This document shows, in pieces, positions 1-6,306 of a stretch of DNA of 6,306 bases (position 1 is the first letter of the stretch; the number at the start of each line of letters is the position of its first letter). The notes beneath the pieces are model-generated. The model ran no database searches and was not told the origin of the DNA. It saw only the letters and a program-made list of their open reading frames with translations. The stretch comes from Acidobacteriota bacterium (lineage in GTDB: Bacteria > Acidobacteriota > Thermoanaerobaculia > Thermoanaerobaculales > Thermoanaerobaculaceae): NCBI GenBank assembly GCA_021782525.1, contig JAJXUY010000098.1, forward strand, positions 1-6,306, read 5' to 3'. The position numbers were made by a program, and so were the translations under genes.

Positions 1-1368
1 GCCGAGGTGCTCGAGCGCGCGAGCGTCGCCTCCGACGAATCGACGCAGGACCCGATCGACCTGGCGATCGTGCGCGAGGCCCAGGCGCGCGGCGTCGACA
101 CCGCGCCGCCGGCCGGGCGGCGGTTCGTCCCGTTCGACTCCGCCACGAAGCGCTCGGAGGGGATCGTCCCCGACGGCGCCGGCCGGCGGCGCGTCGTCAA
201 GGGAACCCCCGCGACGGTCCTGCCGCTGGCCGGCCCGGCGGGCGCGGCGCTCGCGGCGGAGGTGCAACGGCTCGGCACCCTGGGCGCGCGGGTCCTCGCG
301 GTGGTCGAAGGGGACGCAGGGGAGGCCAGCGTGTTGCGGCCGGTCGGGCTGATCGGGCTCGCGGACCCGCCGCGGCCGGATGCGGCGGAGCTGGTCGGCC
401 ACCTGCACGAGCTCGGGGTCAGGGTGGCGATGGTCACCGGCGACGCCGAGGCGACCGCCGTGGTGGTGGCGCGCCAGGTCGGCATCGGCGAGCGCGTGTG
501 CCCGGTGGAGGCGCTACGCCGGGACGCGGACGGCGTGCTCGAACACGATGTCTTCGCCGGCGTGCTGCCGGAGGACAAGTTCCATCTCGTGCAGGCGTTG
601 CAGCGCCGCGGCCACGCGACCGGGATGACCGGCGACGGCGTCAACGACGCCCCGGCGTTGAAGCAGGCGGAGGTCGGGATCGCGGTCTCCAGCGCCACCG
701 ACGTCGCCAAGGCGGCCGCCAGCCTCGTCCTGACGACCCCCGGCCTCGGCAACGTGGTCGCGGCGGTGCGGACGAGCCGGAGGATCTACCAGCGGATGGT
801 GACGTACACGCTCAACAAGGTCATCAAGACGTGCGAGATCTCGCTCCTGCTCAGCCTCGGCCTGGTCCTCACCGGCACGTTCGTGACCACGCCGACGCTG
901 ATCGTGCTGCTGCTGTTCACCAACGATTTCGTCACCATGGCGATCGCCACCGATCGGGCGACGGTACAGGCCGCCCCCACGCGCTGGCGGATCCGCCCGC
1001 TGATGCGCACGGCGCTGACGCTGGCTGCGCTGATCCTGCTGCTGTCGTTCACCGTGTTCTTCGCGGCGCGCAGCGTGCTCCACCTGCCGCTGCCACAGCT
1101 GCAGACCCTGATGTTCGTCCTCCTCGTGGCGAGCGGCCAGGGGACGGTGTACCTGGTGCGGGAGCATCGCCACTTCTGGCACTCGCGGCCGAGCCGGTGG
1201 CTGCTCGGCAGCTCGGTTGCAGATCTTCTCGCCGTGGCCACGATGGCGAGCCTGGGCATCCTGATGGCGCCGATCCCGTTCTGGCTGGTCGCGTCCACGC
1301 TGGCGCTGGTGGCGGTCTACCTCGGCGTCCTCGACCTGGTCAAGGTGCGCCTGATGCGCGCCGTGTGA
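1..1368 (+). CDS. P-type cation-transporting ATPase, P3A (H+-ATPase)-like, C-terminal part (5' truncated)
   Basis: The reading frame is open from the first base and ends at TGA 1366-1368; the gene begins before the window. P-type ATPases couple ATP hydrolysis, through a phospho-aspartate intermediate, to cation transport across the cytoplasmic membrane. Numbering residues from the codon at 7, the visible parts are: the nucleotide-binding domain with FDSATKRS (43-50) and KGTP (65-68); the GLADPPRPD segment (117-125); MVTGD (142-146); the hinge motif TGDGVNDAP (208-216); and about six hydrophobic segments (M5-M10) up to residue 445. The YQRM at the start of M5 and the ND (306-307) in M6 resemble plasma-membrane H+-ATPases as I remember them. 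The DKTGTLT phosphorylation site, the actuator domain and M1-M4 must lie upstream. Transported ion: proton is a reasonable inference, but an Mg2+ or other cation pump is possible. It is convergent with the cytochrome operon and probably unrelated to it. Confidence 0.93.
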   Translation, partial: AEVLERASVASDESTQDPIDLAIVREAQARGVDTAPPAGRRFVPFDSATKRSEGIVPDGAGRRRVVKGTPATVLPLAGPAGAALAAEVQRLGTLGARVLAVVEGDAGEASVLRPVGLIGLADPPRPDAAELVGHLHELGVRVAMVTGDAEATAVVVARQVGIGERVCPVEALRRDADGVLEHDVFAGVLPEDKFHLVQALQRRGHATGMTGDGVNDAPALKQAEVGIAVSSATDVAKAAASLVLTTPGLGNVVAAVRTSRRIYQRMVTYTLNKVIKTCEISLLLSLGLVLTGTFVTTPTLIVLLLFTNDFVTMAIATDRATVQAAPTRWRIRPLMRTALTLAALILLLSFTVFFAARSVLHLPLPQLQTLMFVLLVASGQGTVYLVREHRHFWHSRPSRWLLGSSVADLLAVATMASLGILMAPIPFWLVASTLALVAVYLGVLDLVKVRLMRAV

Positions 1369-1573: not shown

Positions 1574-3118
1574 TCATTCCGCGAGCTCCAGCGCTGTGCG
1601 AAGCGCATCGCCGGTCTCGGTCAGCGGCAGGCTTGCGAGCAGCGCCCGTACCTCAGCCGGCATGGTCGCGTGTCCAGCCATCCCCCTCATCGCCTCTCCC
1701 AGATAGCTGTGCTCTAACAGGAGGCTGAGAACGGCCAGCAGAAAGCGTTGCTTGGCGGGCTGCAGCTGCCCAAGGCGGTGGAACTTGTCGCGGAAGAAGG
1801 CGCTAGTGGCACAGTGCAGCGCCCCGCGCACCTCGTCCACCGTCATCCCGATGGGCTTGATCACCGGCTCGACCAAATTGTAGCGACGCAGATCGTGCAC
1901 GGCGATGGAATCTCTCAGCTCCTGGTAGAGGTCGGCGTATGGCCACGGGGTGAGCGCGAGGAAGAACGCCATGTCGGGTGCGTACCATTTTGCCAGCTCG
2001 ACGGTGGCGGCGATCTTCTCGGGAGTCTCGTCCGGGGTACCGAGTACGAACGAGGTCTCACTCACCATGTCGTGGGCGTTGATCAGGTCGATCGCGCGCT
2101 TGGACTGCGAAACCCTGAGGTCCTTGCAGTAGAGGTCAAGCGTGGCCTGGTCGGTGGACTCCACACCCACGTAGATGTGGGAAACTCCAGCGGCCCGATA
2201 GCGCGGCAGCAACGGCTCGTCGCGCACGATGTCATCGACACGTGTTTCCAGCAGCAACTCCACCCCGACGCGGTGCTCGATCAGCAGGTCGAGGATGCGC
2301 TGCCAGCGGACTGGATCGAGTGTCGGCGTCTCGTCCGACAGCATCGCCACCCGCACGCCATGACGGTCGCGCAGGAGCTCCAATTCGGTCACGAACGACT
2401 CCGGCGTGCGGCCACGCCACGAGCGCTGCCAGAACTTTTGCTGCGAGCAGAACGAACAGCGCTGGCGGCAGCCGCGCGAAGAGCTGACGATGGCCAGCCG
2501 CCCTTCCGGCGCCGGCCGGTAGAAGTAGCGCGGCCACTCCACCAGGTCCCACGCCGGCTGCAGGCGGTCGAGGTCTGAGAGGAACGGCCGGTCTGGCGTG
2601 CTCACCGGGACACCGTCGCGGCGGTAGGCGAGCCCGGGCACGGCGCAGAGGTCCGTACCCGCCGACGCGGCCCCGATCAGCTCGCCGATCGTCGATTCCC
2701 CTTCGCCGCGCACGACGACGTCGACCGCCGGCTCGTCGTCGAGGAGCTGGCGCCAGCAGAACGTCGGGTGCACATTCCCGGCGACCGTGAGGATGGCCGG
2801 ATCGATTTGCTTGGCCGTACGGCATACCTCGCGGGCGTCCGGTTCCATCGCCGTGATCGCGGTGACGCCGACGATGTCCGGACGCCAGTCCGAGATCTCG
2901 CGGGCGATATCGGCGTGACCGTCTTGGAGCGACATCGCGTCATAGATCCTCACCTCGGCCCCTGCGGCTCGGGCATGACCGGCGAGGTAGACGAAGTGGA
3001 GCGGTAGCCACACACCGGCCGCCTCGACCACGCCGGAGTGGTACGGGGGAGTGATCAGGAGAAGGCGCGGCCGCACCCCCGCGGTAGATCGCCGGCCCAG
3101 CAGCCGGCTACGCCTCAC
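1574..3118 (-). CDS. B12-binding radical SAM protein, BchE-like (anaerobic Mg-protoporphyrin monomethyl ester cyclase family)
   Basis: A 514-residue protein. The N-terminal B12-binding-like domain (about 18-155) opens with PPYHSG (24-29) and carries DAM (60-62), VGVTAIT (84-90) and VVRGEGE (135-141). The radical SAM core (about 205-400) has the 4Fe-4S ligands C217, C221 and C224 in CRQRCSFC, followed by SQQKFW (225-230), then GVES (318-321) and LGTPDET (359-365). TPWPYADLYQEL (390-401) and YNLVEP (413-418) follow. This series of motifs matches BchE as I remember it almost segment by segment, including CSFCSQxKFW and TPWPxxDLxQEL. BchE forms the isocyclic ring of bacteriochlorophyll without oxygen, using cobalamin and S-adenosylmethionine. 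As in BchE, the cobalamin domain has no DxHxxG motif. The GTG start is preceded by GAGGTGG and overlaps the lipoprotein stop by 4 bases. An internal GTG at codon 15 is a weaker alternative. The actual substrate is unknown: no other chlorophyll gene is visible, so a different tetrapyrrole or lipid is possible. Confidence 0.88.
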   Translation of the reverse strand: MRRSRLLGRRSTAGVRPRLLLITPPYHSGVVEAAGVWLPLHFVYLAGHARAAGAEVRIYDAMSLQDGHADIAREISDWRPDIVGVTAITAMEPDAREVCRTAKQIDPAILTVAGNVHPTFCWRQLLDDEPAVDVVVRGEGESTIGELIGAASAGTDLCAVPGLAYRRDGVPVSTPDRPFLSDLDRLQPAWDLVEWPRYFYRPAPEGRLAIVSSSRGCRQRCSFCSQQKFWQRSWRGRTPESFVTELELLRDRHGVRVAMLSDETPTLDPVRWQRILDLLIEHRVGVELLLETRVDDIVRDEPLLPRYRAAGVSHIYVGVESTDQATLDLYCKDLRVSQSKRAIDLINAHDMVSETSFVLGTPDETPEKIAATVELAKWYAPDMAFFLALTPWPYADLYQELRDSIAVHDLRRYNLVEPVIKPIGMTVDEVRGALHCATSAFFRDKFHRLGQLQPAKQRFLLAVLSLLLEHSYLGEAMRGMAGHATMPAEVRALLASLPLTETGDALRTALELAE

Positions 3119-3642
3119 CGTCCACCTCTTTCGCCGATACCGTGGCCGGCCGTGGCGGAGCGCGGCCCGGCGCCGGGTGGCTGGAGGTATCGGGACGACA
3201 GCGTTCGGCCTTCGAGGACGCGCCAGTGGCCGTCTTCGTGCACAAGCTGGTACTCCATCGTCATCTCGGAGGTGAAGACCGGCCCGCCGACGCCGCCCGG
3301 GCGGGCAGGCCGGTCATGGTAGGTCCACCGCTCCCGCGTGCGTACTGTGACCCCAGTCGCCGTGCGCGTCGAATCGAGCAGCGAGAAGTCTTCCAGCGAG
3401 CATTCGAGCACCAGTCCCGAGGCTCGCTTGAGATCCACAAGCGCGGCCACGCGCCGCACCTCTCCGGGCCCGGCCACTGCCGCCAGGGGGGCGAGGTCGC
3501 CGGTGCGGTACGCCGTGATCAGGGCATCGTCGTACGCCCGTGCCACTCCGGCAGTGGCCCAGCGCAGCCGCACGGCATCACACCCTGCCAGCGTGCTGGC
3601 GAAAAGCGCAATCCACGCCGCCGCGCGCACCGCGGCGGTCAC
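3115..3642 (-). CDS. Small lipoprotein, possible NTF2/IMS-like fold, unknown function
   Basis: A 175-residue protein that I cannot name. It begins with a lipoprotein signal peptide: a short hydrophobic stretch (about 5-20) ending in the lipobox LAGC (18-21), so C21 should be lipidated. The next residue is Asp22, which in enterobacteria retains lipoproteins in the inner membrane; whether that rule applies here is unknown. The mature part runs from ARAYDDALITAYRTGDL (34-50) through an alternating region with RTRERWTYHD (101-110) to YQLVHEDGHWRVLEG (131-145). This helix-then-strand pattern ending in 'W-R-V' resembles NTF2/SnoaL or IMS-type (Arc6-like) domains, which is a tentative call. After lipidation only C81 remains as a free cysteine, so it is not a CxxC thiol-disulphide protein such as ResA/CcsX. 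GTG start, preceded by GGTGGGG; its start overlaps the CcsA-like stop by 4 bases and its own stop overlaps the radical SAM start. The last 20 residues are Gly/Arg-rich and low in complexity. Confidence 0.82.
   Translation of the reverse strand: MTAAVRAAAWIALFASTLAGCDAVRLRWATAGVARAYDDALITAYRTGDLAPLAAVAGPGEVRRVAALVDLKRASGLVLECSLEDFSLLDSTRTATGVTVRTRERWTYHDRPARPGGVGGPVFTSEMTMEYQLVHEDGHWRVLEGRTLSSRYLQPPGAGPRSATAGHGIGERGGR
3122..3128 (-). promoter_or_regulatory. Ribosome binding site supporting the GTG start of the BchE-like gene
   Basis: GAGGTGG on the minus strand lies inside the end of the lipoprotein gene; its GAGGT core ends 5 bases before the GTG at 3118. It supports this start over the internal GTG at 3076, which has no comparable purine-rich sequence. 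Confidence 0.55.
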
Positions 3643-4460
3643 GATCGCCCCACCAGGTAGAAGTTATGGATGGTGGGTGTGACCAGCACGACAACGTAGA
3701 TCGTCACCACCATGAGGAGGAACGCCAGAAGGGTCAGATACGCCATGCGGCGGCCGCTCCAGCCGTGCAAGAGCCGGAAGTGCAGGATCACGCCATAGGC
3801 GATCCAGGTGGTCAGCGAGCTGGTCTCGATCGGGTCCCACGCCCAGTACCGGCCCCACGACTGGTAGGCCCAGAGCGAGCCAGCGACGATCATCACGCCG
3901 AGGAACAGGAACGCCAGCAGGAGGAACTGGTGGCCGTACAGGTCGGCCCGTTGCGGCGAAGGCAGCCGTGGCAGACGGCTGGGATCCCGTTCCTTGATCA
4001 GATACACCACGGCGCACGCTGCCGCGAGGATCACGGCGGCGCCGAACGCCTTGGCGAACGCGATGTGCAGGTACAGCCAGGCCGACTTGAAGATGATCGG
4101 CACCTCCTGCCTGACGTTGAACGCCGTGGCGGCCCCCCCGAGCAAGAGGAACGCCACCGGCAACACAAGCGCGCCCAGGCCGCGTAGCGCCCGCGTCACG
4201 AGCACCGCCACTAGGAAGAACGTGACCAGGACGAAGGCGTTGGCGGAGAGGACCTCGTAGCGGGAGGAGAACGGGCCATGTCCGACCTCGCGCCAACGCA
4301 GGGCGAGCGAGGCGGCGTGAGGGACGAGCCCGAGCGCCGCCACGGCGACACCCCATCGCGCGGCGCCGTCGCGCCGGAACGCCAGCGCGACGAAGAACAG
4401 CGCGGTCGCCAGCGCGTAGGCTGTGGCGGCAGCCCAGAAGGCGAGTAGCTGGTCGATCAT
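3639..4460 (-). CDS. ccsA: Cytochrome c biogenesis protein CcsA/ResC-like (System II haem export and ligation)
   Basis: A 273-residue membrane protein with about eight hydrophobic segments (near 4-27, 35-53, 70-90, 92-110, 126-152, 177-197, 210-228 and 236-260). It belongs to the CcsA/CcmC/CcmF haem-handling family. The tryptophan-rich 'WWD' haem-binding motif is WGRYWAWDPIETSSLTTW (202-219). Candidate haem-ligand histidines sit where the family has them: H48 in VPHAASLALR, H132 in YLHIAFAKAFG, H227 in ILHFRL and H265 in TPTIHNFY. With ResB it forms the System II synthetase, which moves haem to the outer face of the membrane and attaches it to CxxCH sites of apocytochromes. ATG start, preceded by GGGGGG with a 5-base gap; the ATG overlaps the ResB stop (ATGA). 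It is slightly shorter than many family members (about 300-400 residues), but no core element is missing. Confidence 0.93.
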   Translation of the reverse strand: MIDQLLAFWAAATAYALATALFFVALAFRRDGAARWGVAVAALGLVPHAASLALRWREVGHGPFSSRYEVLSANAFVLVTFFLVAVLVTRALRGLGALVLPVAFLLLGGAATAFNVRQEVPIIFKSAWLYLHIAFAKAFGAAVILAAACAVVYLIKERDPSRLPRLPSPQRADLYGHQFLLLAFLFLGVMIVAGSLWAYQSWGRYWAWDPIETSSLTTWIAYGVILHFRLLHGWSGRRMAYLTLLAFLLMVVTIYVVVLVTPTIHNFYLVGRS

Positions 4461-5671
4461 GCTTTCCCCCCAGGTTCGGCGTCGCGATTATCGCTACACT
4501 CGTCCCACTCTGCCAACAGCGCCTCGTTGCCCCGGTTTACCCACACACGGCCGGCCATCTCTGCCCCCTCGCCGGCGATGCACGCCACGCCGGCGGGAAA
4601 CAGCAGCAGCGTCGCGCCCAGCAGCACGAGGGCGAATCCGGCGTACACCGCCGTCATCCCTGGCGAACGGCTGAAGGTGAATCCGGCCCAGCGCGACACC
4701 TGCACCAGGCGTGCCTGCGCCGTTCCGAACTGAAAAAACGATCCCGGGCGCAGGGCGGTGACGACGCCCTCGTGCTCCTCCCAGATGCTCAGTGCTCCGG
4801 TCCCGGTTGCATCGTCGAGACGGCGCTCCCCCCGCACCCCCAGGCGCACCGCTGCGCCGCCAGGCGCGGTGAACGTGGCGGACGCGGCAAACCTGCTTCG
4901 GGCGCGCAGGTGCAGCGCCCGCACCCCGAGGCCTGGCACGTCGACGACCAACGCGAGGCCCGTGGGAATCGCCTGGAAGATCGTGGCAGCGCGAGTTTGC
5001 ACGCCGTGGGCGCGGTCAACGAACGCCTCTGCCGTGGCCATTCCAGGCCGCTCCAGGAGCACGCGGCTACCTCGGTCTGCCGCGAACCCCAATTGATGCA
5101 GGAACGGATCAAAGGCGAGCAAGGTGACGCGCAGCGCCGGCGGCGCCGCCGGCGCCAGCAGGCCACGGGCTCGCGCGAAGACCGCCCGCGGCGCCCTCAG
5201 ATCCAAGGTCTCCCCCTCCGCCACCTCAAACGCGCCCGTATCGTGGAACGCCTGCTGCATGCCGGTTGCCGCCATGAGGACGAGCAGGCCGGCATGGAAG
5301 ACCACTCCGCCGAACAGCGCCGGACGGTTGCGGAACAGCGCGGCGCCGTGCGCGCGAAAACCGTGCCGTTCCGTCAGGAACTGGGTGAGGTTTGCGTTCC
5401 CCCGACGGGGCAGCGTTGCCGCGGCCGGCGGCATGACGCCCCGCCACACGGCAGCCAACCCGCGGGCCCGATATGCGGTACACGTTGCGGTGTTGAGAAA
5501 CAGCAGTCCGCAAGCGACCAGAAATGGCCAACTCGAGAACGGGTTCCTCCCGCCGGGCACGCTTGTTTGGCTGCCGCCCAGCCAGGTTGCGAGGCCACAG
5601 AACGCGGCGATGAAAAGCAGGAGAGAGAGCGTGAGGCGGACGGAGCGCAGCCCGCGAAAAATGGTCCCCAC
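4457..5671 (-). CDS. resB: Cytochrome c biogenesis protein ResB/Ccs1-like
   Basis: About 404 residues from the chosen GTG at 5671. It is the ResB half of the System II cytochrome c synthetase, thought to hold the apocytochrome and reduced haem on the outer side of the membrane. Topology: TM1 about 13-32 after an RGLRSVRLT segment, TM2 about 47-67, TM3 about 119-137 carrying H126 in VVFHAG, a large extracytoplasmic domain (about 138-338), then TM4 about 339-358 introduced by a SRSPGM turn, and a short cytoplasmic tail. The four-helix plan with a large domain before the last helix is that of ResB/Ccs1. The frame stays open upstream to an ATG at 6052, but those extra ~126 codons lie over the cytochrome gene, are Pro/Ser/Thr/Arg-rich and low in complexity, and would put a non-homologous extension before TM1. 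The start is therefore placed after the cytochrome stop, at GTG 5671 (or the adjacent GTG 5674). Confidence 0.9.
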   Translation of the reverse strand: MGTIFRGLRSVRLTLSLLLFIAAFCGLATWLGGSQTSVPGGRNPFSSWPFLVACGLLFLNTATCTAYRARGLAAVWRGVMPPAAATLPRRGNANLTQFLTERHGFRAHGAALFRNRPALFGGVVFHAGLLVLMAATGMQQAFHDTGAFEVAEGETLDLRAPRAVFARARGLLAPAAPPALRVTLLAFDPFLHQLGFAADRGSRVLLERPGMATAEAFVDRAHGVQTRAATIFQAIPTGLALVVDVPGLGVRALHLRARSRFAASATFTAPGGAAVRLGVRGERRLDDATGTGALSIWEEHEGVVTALRPGSFFQFGTAQARLVQVSRWAGFTFSRSPGMTAVYAGFALVLLGATLLLFPAGVACIAGEGAEMAGRVWVNRGNEALLAEWDECSDNRDAEPGGKA

Positions 5672-5676
5672 CACGG

Positions 5677-5687: not shown

Positions 5688-6306
5688 TCAGTGACCCCAG
5701 CCGTCGTTACCACACCCGCAGTTGCTCTGCCCCCACGTGGCGGTGTTGCTCGTCGGGTAGCTGTTGATGCGCAGTCCCTGGTTGCCCGAGGGGAGCTGCA
5801 GGTACGGGGCGGCGTCGGTCGCGAGCACCCCATTGATCGAGCTGCTATTCGACGGGCAGACCAAGAGCCCGGGCCGGGCGGTGCCGTGTGGGATCGCGCT
5901 GTGGCAGTTGAAACACTTGATGGGCCCGCCGCTGGGTGGACTGGTAGTGTGCTGGCTGAGGGTGTGTCGTGGAAAGCGACTGTTGGCAAAGGTGGCGCTG
6001 TGGCAATTGGCGCAAAACGTCCCGGCTGGCATCCCAGAGGTCGTCCCCCCAACGGTGCCGTCCCACTTGGTGTTGGGCCCCTTGAGGATGAAGCCCGCGG
6101 TCGAGCCGTGCGGGCCGTTGGGGTCGGCGGTGTTGTCGGATTCGTGGCAGTCGCTGCAGGTCATTGTGCTGGTGCGCGTCCACGGCGACAGGATGTTGGA
6201 TGTTGCGCCCAGGTTGCTGCCGGCCGAAGCCAGGACTGGGTGGTAACTGCCGTAGTTGCTGCCAGAGTTCGTGTTGTTCGGGTTGAACTCGCGCGCGGTG
6301 TCGGTC
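5688..6306 (-). CDS. Multihaem c-type cytochrome, C-terminal part (5' end beyond window)
   Basis: The frame is open from the right edge of the window to TGA at 5688, at least 205 residues, and starts outside. An internal ATG at 6162-6164 is not the start: coding sequence of the same character continues upstream with REFNPNN (6293-6273), YHPV (6245-6234) and LSPW (6191-6180). Three canonical haem c attachment motifs are visible: CSDCH (6158-6144), CANCH (6014-6000) and CFNCH (5915-5901). Nearby histidines in NGPHGS, FPRHTLSQH and IPHG are candidate distal ligands for bis-His haems. Patterns such as EFNPNN...YHPV, GPHGS and FILKGPN are, from memory, recurrent in large secreted multihaem cytochromes of Geobacter-like bacteria, so an extracytoplasmic electron-transfer role is inferred. 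The tail ends CGCGNDGWGH, which is not a CxxCH site. It is the first visible gene of the maturation operon and the obvious client of the ResB/CcsA pair about 16 bases downstream. Confidence 0.9.
   Translation of the reverse strand, partial: TDTAREFNPNNTNSGSNYGSYHPVLASAGSNLGATSNILSPWTRTSTMTCSDCHESDNTADPNGPHGSTAGFILKGPNTKWDGTVGGTTSGMPAGTFCANCHSATFANSRFPRHTLSQHTTSPPSGGPIKCFNCHSAIPHGTARPGLLVCPSNSSSINGVLATDAAPYLQLPSGNQGLRINSYPTSNTATWGQSNCGCGNDGWGH

Follow-up and report, generated by a model that had tools for sequence, protein, structure and literature searches.

The 6,306-nucleotide stretch analysed here in full (the window; contig JAJXUY010000098.1 of an Acidobacteriota bacterium) encodes a cobalamin-dependent radical S-adenosylmethionine (SAM) enzyme that resembles BchE of chlorophyll synthesis. 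Its gene ends a chain that also codes for a multihaem cytochrome and for ResB and CcsA, the partners of a System II cytochrome c synthase. The partnership of the BchE-like enzyme with a ResB-CcsA synthase is well supported across phyla, and a BchE-sister enzyme beside haem-attachment genes suggests an undescribed chemical step in the making of multihaem cytochromes. Tentatively, with a probability of about 0.4, we read the family, near or sister to BchE, as accessory to a dedicated System II synthase for multihaem cytochromes. Its most likely role would be to alter haem before export.

A protein search with the enzyme gives 2793 matches among 7995 scored candidates. Among the best 120 of the 2793, one is 98% identical and the rest 64-75%; many of the named ones are called Mg-protoporphyrin cyclase by a source. 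We took as family loci the best 80 of 208 confirmed relatives, from a scan with one genome per species. They come from Geobacter-type bacteria, Nitrospirota, Anaeromyxobacter, other Myxococcota, Verrucomicrobiota, Acidobacteriota, Hydrogenedentes, Binatota, Lentisphaerota and two Pseudomonadota bins. The rows share ancestry, and counts over them are not counts of independent events.

When the neighbours in these loci are clustered, the most frequent are CcsA (55 loci), ResB (47) and multihaem cytochromes (38). By profile search, CcsA is present in 60 loci, ResB in 54 and at least one of them in 62/80, including 38 of the 45 loci of at least 19 kb. The same profiles find neither ResB (0/40) nor CcsA (0/40) at control loci of other B12/radical-SAM paralogues, picked by hand, not at random, from 18 of 22 genomes. 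The profiles were built from the same 80 loci, and the window's own ResB and CcsA served as check queries: either is matched in 61/80 family loci, 4/11 further loci and 0/40 controls. The preliminary description of this DNA had tied a BchE relative to haem attachment; the link recurs well beyond this genome, and with it the separate clade and the dedicated synthase described below are supported, while the altered haem stays a proposal.

The nearest CcsA or ResB gene lies on the same strand as the BchE-like gene in 62/62 linked loci, at a median gap of about 1 kb and within 100 bp in 15 of them. Immediately upstream of the enzyme stands CcsA in 23/80 loci and the small protein c4 in 13/80. By phylum, the link is seen in Thermodesulfobacteriota (23/27), Nitrospirota (17/24), Myxococcota (8/14), Verrucomicrobiota (7/7), Pseudomonadota (2/2), the single loci of Binatota, Lentisphaerota, Acidobacteriota and Hydrogenedentes, and one of two other records: eight named phyla plus Hydrogenedentes overall. 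Literature searches linking ResB/CcsA or Geobacter with radical SAM enzymes or BchE yielded, mostly from listings, no earlier report of the link. The passages retrieved from PMC3787301 do not name BchE; those from PMC2825233 hold one radical SAM table entry and neither ResB nor a haem lyase.

Cytochromes with at least five CXXCH motifs occur in 49/80 family loci, versus 2/40 controls. The 75 same-strand cytochromes of the loci have between 5 CXXCH, the lower limit of the count, and 55. Together they hold 1089 CX2CH, 140 CX4CH and 31 CX3CH sites, and each other spacing from 1 to 11 is found 0-15 times. In Anaeromyxobacter-type bins, two giant cytochromes with 51 and 55 CXXCH (L008:3653-11689 and L009:11672-19153) are encoded directly downstream of the BchE-like gene.

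The loci follow two layouts. In layout A, that of the window, the cytochrome, ResB, CcsA and sometimes a lipoprotein precede the enzyme. Layout B, seen in many Nitrospirota and Geobacter-type loci, runs through ResB, CcsA, a second B12/radical-SAM protein, a LuxE-like ligase (PF04443) and c4 to the enzyme. An example of c4 (L031:11020-11367) is a small membrane protein of about 116 residues with a weak resemblance to CopD; three hydrophobic stretches appear in a hydropathy scan of one member, and His15 and Lys95-His96 are invariant in 12 sequences. Of 22 whole genomes, 15 have a single c4 match and seven have none at E 1e-6. The distance to a BchE-like gene, measured by hand, is at most 3.3 kb in 14 of the 15 and 9.8 kb in the remaining one. 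LuxE is matched at E 1e-20 in 8/22 genomes, on the same contig within 11 kb in seven; the eighth is a weak match elsewhere. In layout B, L068:1951-3450 is an example of a LuxE-like acyl-protein synthetase with linkage to the BchE-like gene. Within the window, the c4 and LuxE profiles find nothing significant.

Some loci also contain a PMT-type transferase or an FAD oxidoreductase of the PRK07208 family. Two neighbour clusters were rejected as haem-pathway candidates. Cluster c23 (FAD proteins, 4 loci) was considered as protoporphyrinogen oxidase, and the three of four members scanned all belong to the PRK07208 family and score under the cut-offs for protoporphyrinogen oxidase; in c11 (MoaA/NirJ-like radical SAM proteins, 8 loci), the two members scanned score far below the heme-d1 and Ahb cut-offs.

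Such company could mean that the enzyme makes another product, a lipid, a quinone or part of a surface glycan, and is merely co-regulated with electron-transfer genes. The LuxE-like ligase, second B12 radical SAM protein, transferase and oxidoreductase of some loci fit this explanation, as do the 18/80 family loci, some on short contigs, in which neither ResB nor CcsA is seen. However, ResB and CcsA recur across phyla, invariably on the enzyme's strand, and more widely than those neighbours, and the window gene ends a chain of four-nucleotide overlaps with the synthase genes. We regard mere co-regulation as doubtful.

The synthase beside the enzyme appears to be a specialised one. Thirteen genomes hold 3-7 CcsA matches each, and in 11 of them the BchE-like gene of the family locus has one of these no more than 10 kb away (distances by hand; the exceptions are G006 and G011). 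These nearby copies score 132-201 bits, 10/11 of them below the CcsB cut-off of 187.6, and 9/13 genomes also carry another copy above it. The CcsA copies beside the BchE-like gene are thus mostly extra ones, which supports a dedicated synthase. Passages of PMC12285233 describe specialised synthases, NrfI and CcsA1 of Wolinella, so that the presence of an additional synthase could by itself also point to special binding motifs such as CX4CH.

The lipoprotein is tied to the synthase by gene fusions: its domain forms the C-terminus of ResB in 7/7 Verrucomicrobiota loci (L047, L057, L073, L041, L060, L072 and L080). The lipobox cysteine is near-invariant in the 17 sequences of the family alignment. 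The predicted structure (predicted local distance difference test, pLDDT, 89.9) has an NTF2-like fold nearest the intermembrane-space (IMS) domains of ARC6, with 5d9r as the best Foldseek match (E 1.6e-6).

On the enzyme itself, Pfam finds a B12-binding domain (PF02310, 5.6e-26) followed by Radical_SAM (PF04055, 4e-20), the domain order of the cobalamin-dependent radical SAM superfamily. The CX3CX2C site for the 4Fe-4S cluster consists of C217, C221 and C224, invariant in 51 sequences. No signal peptide is seen by eye, no predictor having been run. The AlphaFold2 model built from 51 sequences (mean pLDDT 88.7) resembles the B12/radical-SAM structures AprD4, TsrM, CysS, TokK, MgmA and OxsB in Foldseek.

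The top of 20 NCBIfam matches is the BchE model TIGR02026, over residues 18-468; the score of 396.6 bits falls short of the cut-off, 481.35. The translation contains CRQRCSFCSQQKFW, TPWPYADLYQEL and VVRGEGE; the preliminary description, which saw BchE-like motifs nearly end to end, was right in this respect. The enzyme stays far from the hopanoid models (HpnR, 147.6 of 650 bits; HpnJ, 91.6 of 577.6). In a sample of 39 relatives of a Geomonas genome at family level, none reaches the TIGR02026 cut-off, which is exceeded in 1/22 genomes (G022). The protein concerned, L091 from Verrucomicrobia, is just above the cut-off, and in the trees it clusters with proteins of Allocoleopsis and Sphingobium, away from the six BchE references used here; the cut-off may not be clean.

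These six references come from plasmid records of Pseudomonadota and Cyanobacteriota (38-41% tblastn identity). Five have annotated bch or photosystem genes nearby, and the sixth, from the cyanobacterium Kovacikia, is unannotated; Chlorobiota, Chloroflexota and Heliobacteria are not represented among the BchE of the trees. A quick tree of 95 rows puts the window protein and all 80 loci on one side of a branch (SH-aLRT 99) and gives the six BchE a branch of their own (SH-aLRT 100). L001 entered this tree as its longer reading-frame piece only, and HpnJ and HpnR are very long branches that do not make a clean outgroup. With nearer outgroups, a careful tree of 42 rows supports the family clade at 99/97 and the BchE clade at 100/100; the window protein groups with Myxococcota and a Victivallales bin. 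Both trees place the enzyme outside the clade of the six phototroph BchE, in keeping with the earlier view of it as a relative.

Proteins with the N-terminus HCWGVQVVGTW (L094:10982-12460, L096:7826-9316 and L098:2885-4381) form a group outside the family clade. Close to the gene of this type, L096 and L098 each hold another BchE-like gene. A record titled Nitrospirae (L079) carries a BchE-like protein that groups inside the Geobacter-type rows of the 95-row tree, perhaps as a mis-binned contig or a transfer.

At 90 positions, 6/6 BchE have the same residue as at least 90% of the 80 family rows (L062 is excluded from the residue counts). Of these, 23 occur in no more than 2/8 other B12 radical SAM proteins; the 23 include Y26, E32, G35, W37, M62, W195, E354, W392, P418 and K421. 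A further 31 positions are fixed differently in the family and in BchE. The kept residues together with the changed ones suggest BchE-like chemistry with a changed substrate.

We propose that the enzyme would act in the cytosol on haem b or a precursor, with SAM and cobalamin under anoxia. By analogy with BchE, the site would most likely be a propionate side chain. BchE turns the monomethyl ester into protochlorophyllide by oxidising the C13 side chain in a six-electron reaction that uses SAM, cobalamin and reductants such as ferredoxin (passages of PMC13142503). CcsBA moves haem b from the cytosol to the periplasm and forms thioethers at the vinyls (passages of PMC12285233 and PMC10663686). 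Because BchE-type chemistry leaves vinyls alone, both vinyl groups would stay free and the altered haem could still be bound. The dedicated ResB-CcsA would carry it across the membrane and bind it to the CXXCH or CX4CH motifs of the operon cytochromes, and the lipoprotein would be a part of the synthase in the periplasm.

In layout B, the LuxE-like ligase would activate a carboxylate in BchM's place, c4 would hand over haem and the second B12 radical SAM enzyme would also take part. Such a whole haem-tailoring pathway, in which the enzyme oxidises or cyclises a propionate and the dedicated ResB-CcsA with its lipoprotein installs a new haem c in electron-transfer cytochromes, is unlikely in this full form.

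Several points weigh against an alteration of haem by a BchE sister. An altered haem is not known from any structure of a multihaem cytochrome. The 31 fixed differences from BchE mean that chemistry or substrate may differ. The HCWGVQ-type group joins BchE with support of only 84/49, so the sister relation of the family to BchE is not firm. Besides the 18 family loci without ResB/CcsA, a synthase gene lies within 1 kb in only 31/62 linked loci, and one layout has other genes between synthase and enzyme. Around 11 further BchE-model paralogues of the same genomes (L093-L103), ResB/CcsA are found by profile in 5/11; this set mixes family members, the HCWGVQ type (L094, L096, L098 and L099) and weaker or other paralogues (L101, L102 and L103). 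Among the 39 family-level relatives, four of which (G005, G008, G010 and G020) were picked for having the gene, a BchE-like protein is matched in 22 at E 1e-90; this threshold lets in the HCWGVQ type too. The other 17 lack any such match, which makes the enzyme an accessory one.

Alternatively, the enzyme may modify the apocytochrome polypeptide before export, for instance by C-methylation or a crosslink, and the synthase attach ordinary haem. According to passages of PMC13142503, the majority of cobalamin-dependent radical SAM enzymes are presumed to be methylases, and the substrate of PbsB is a peptide. The top solved Foldseek matches include AprD4, TsrM and MgmA, a glutamine methylase acting on protein, and the unusual CX4CH and CX3CH sites of the same-strand cytochromes would also suit a modified polypeptide. 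Against this, the enzyme keeps BchE signature residues that are mostly missing in the eight other B12 radical SAM proteins, and the cytochromes differ greatly in size. We find modification of the polypeptide improbable.

A normal anaerobic step of haem synthesis, with the enzyme standing in for HemN or protoporphyrinogen oxidase, is very unlikely. Over 16 genomes with a BchE-like gene, classical HemN exceeds its cut-off in only 4 and HemY in 8 (HemG and HemJ were not searched), and HemN is over cut-off in 0/39 of the family-level sample, which could leave room for a stand-in. Yet the four HemN genomes have the BchE-like gene as well, ferrochelatase is over cut-off in 13/16, and all 39 relatives have a similar sub-cut-off HemN-like match at E 1e-30, including the 17 without a BchE-like protein. 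The HemN counts and these 17 relatives disfavour a HemN replacement.

A true BchE of a phototroph or a remnant of the chlorophyll pathway is ruled out for practical purposes by the separate clade, the score below the TIGR02026 cut-off and the lack of BchM (0/22) and BchH (0/15) over cut-off in related genomes, where, completeness not being given, each absence may be a gap. Domain and model scans of the window proteins likewise show no bch gene, as the preliminary description had noted. Binatota with bchE and without bchM have been reported (passages of PMC8262859).

On the minus strand of the window, the cytochrome is followed by ResB, CcsA, the lipoprotein and the BchE-like enzyme (Table 1). 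Four-nucleotide overlaps join the enzyme's GTG at 3118 to the lipoprotein's TGA, the lipoprotein to CcsA (3642/3639) and CcsA to ResB (4460/4457). By eye, a second GTG at 3076 agrees better with where relatives of the enzyme begin. Its translation may thus start 14 codons further downstream, which makes the overlap with the lipoprotein gene uncertain. The claimed overlap of the GTG with the preceding stop thus holds for the first start only, and the preceding gene is the lipoprotein, not CcsA. The claimed operon of multihaem cytochrome, ResB and CcsA is borne out by PF05140 and PF01578, the cytochrome being present as its C-terminal part only.

Table 1 Features of the window.
Feature	Position	Strand	Remarks
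BchE-like cobalamin-dependent radical SAM enzyme	1574..3118	-	514 aa; GTG start at 3118, alternative GTG at 3076
Lipoprotein	3115..3642	-	175 aa; lipobox LAGC read by eye; NTF2-like / ARC6-IMS-like fold
CcsA/CcsB-type haem exporter and cytochrome c synthase subunit (predicted)	3639..4460	-	PF01578 4.3e-29; WGRYWAWDP (WWD-type motif)
ResB, System II synthase partner	4457..5674	-	PF05140 1.9e-10; start uncertain, GTG 5674 or 5671 by hand
Multihaem cytochrome, C-terminal part only	5688..6305	-	3 CXXCH in view; runs off the window
P-type ATPase, C-terminal part	1-1368	+	Best model TIGR01647, 314 bits, below cut-off

ResB and CcsA occur together in the window, the latter with a WWD-type motif, as in a System II synthase. 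CcsA scores 142.1 bits against TIGR03144, under the cut-off of 187.6, and matches the CcsA profile of the 80 loci at 1.4e-93; ResB matches its corresponding profile at 1e-54. From the gene order, this synthase would attach haem to the adjoining cytochrome. The cytochrome matches PF09699 (5.7e-5) and PF14522 (3.8e-4, below its cut-off), with relatives in loci L003, L008 and L049 at 5e-47 to 3e-57. The lipoprotein has no match in a Pfam scan, and the profile of its family finds it at 1e-28. The fragment of a P-type ATPase, whose best model is a plasma-membrane proton-efflux pump, stands tail to tail with the operon.

If haem is altered as proposed, c-type cytochromes of metal-reducing and of subsurface bacteria would contain a so far undescribed tetrapyrrole with a redox potential of its own. 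Many genes of non-phototrophs now labelled as chlorophyll enzymes would gain a role, and BchE-type chemistry, whose cobalamin mechanism is still debated, a second function. There would also be a testable reason for several cytochrome c synthases in one genome.

With BchE, the family has in common the domain order, the CX3CX2C site, the 90 fixed positions and the motifs YHSG..E.AG.W, DAM, TPWP and YN(L/F)V.P(V/I).KP, with small exceptions in single rows. Unlike BchE, it forms a separate clade with 31 fixed differences, the window protein being 35-38% identical over aligned positions, and the long C-terminal extension of BchE ending in ACG(G/A) is absent from the four family rows compared. Its genomes lack BchM and BchH over cut-off, and ResB/CcsA take the place of bch genes as neighbours. 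HpnR, HpnJ, AprD4, TsrM and MgmA share the fold and cofactor domains with the family enzyme, but HpnR and HpnJ are only 19-26% identical to family rows and miss most BchE signature residues. Known System II synthases (ResB-CcsA or CcsBA) are alike in that ResB stands with a WWD-type CcsA beside a cytochrome; an accessory enzyme of this sort appears for none of them in the literature listings searched. To this common core, the family system adds a BchE-like enzyme and an ARC6-IMS-like lipoprotein.
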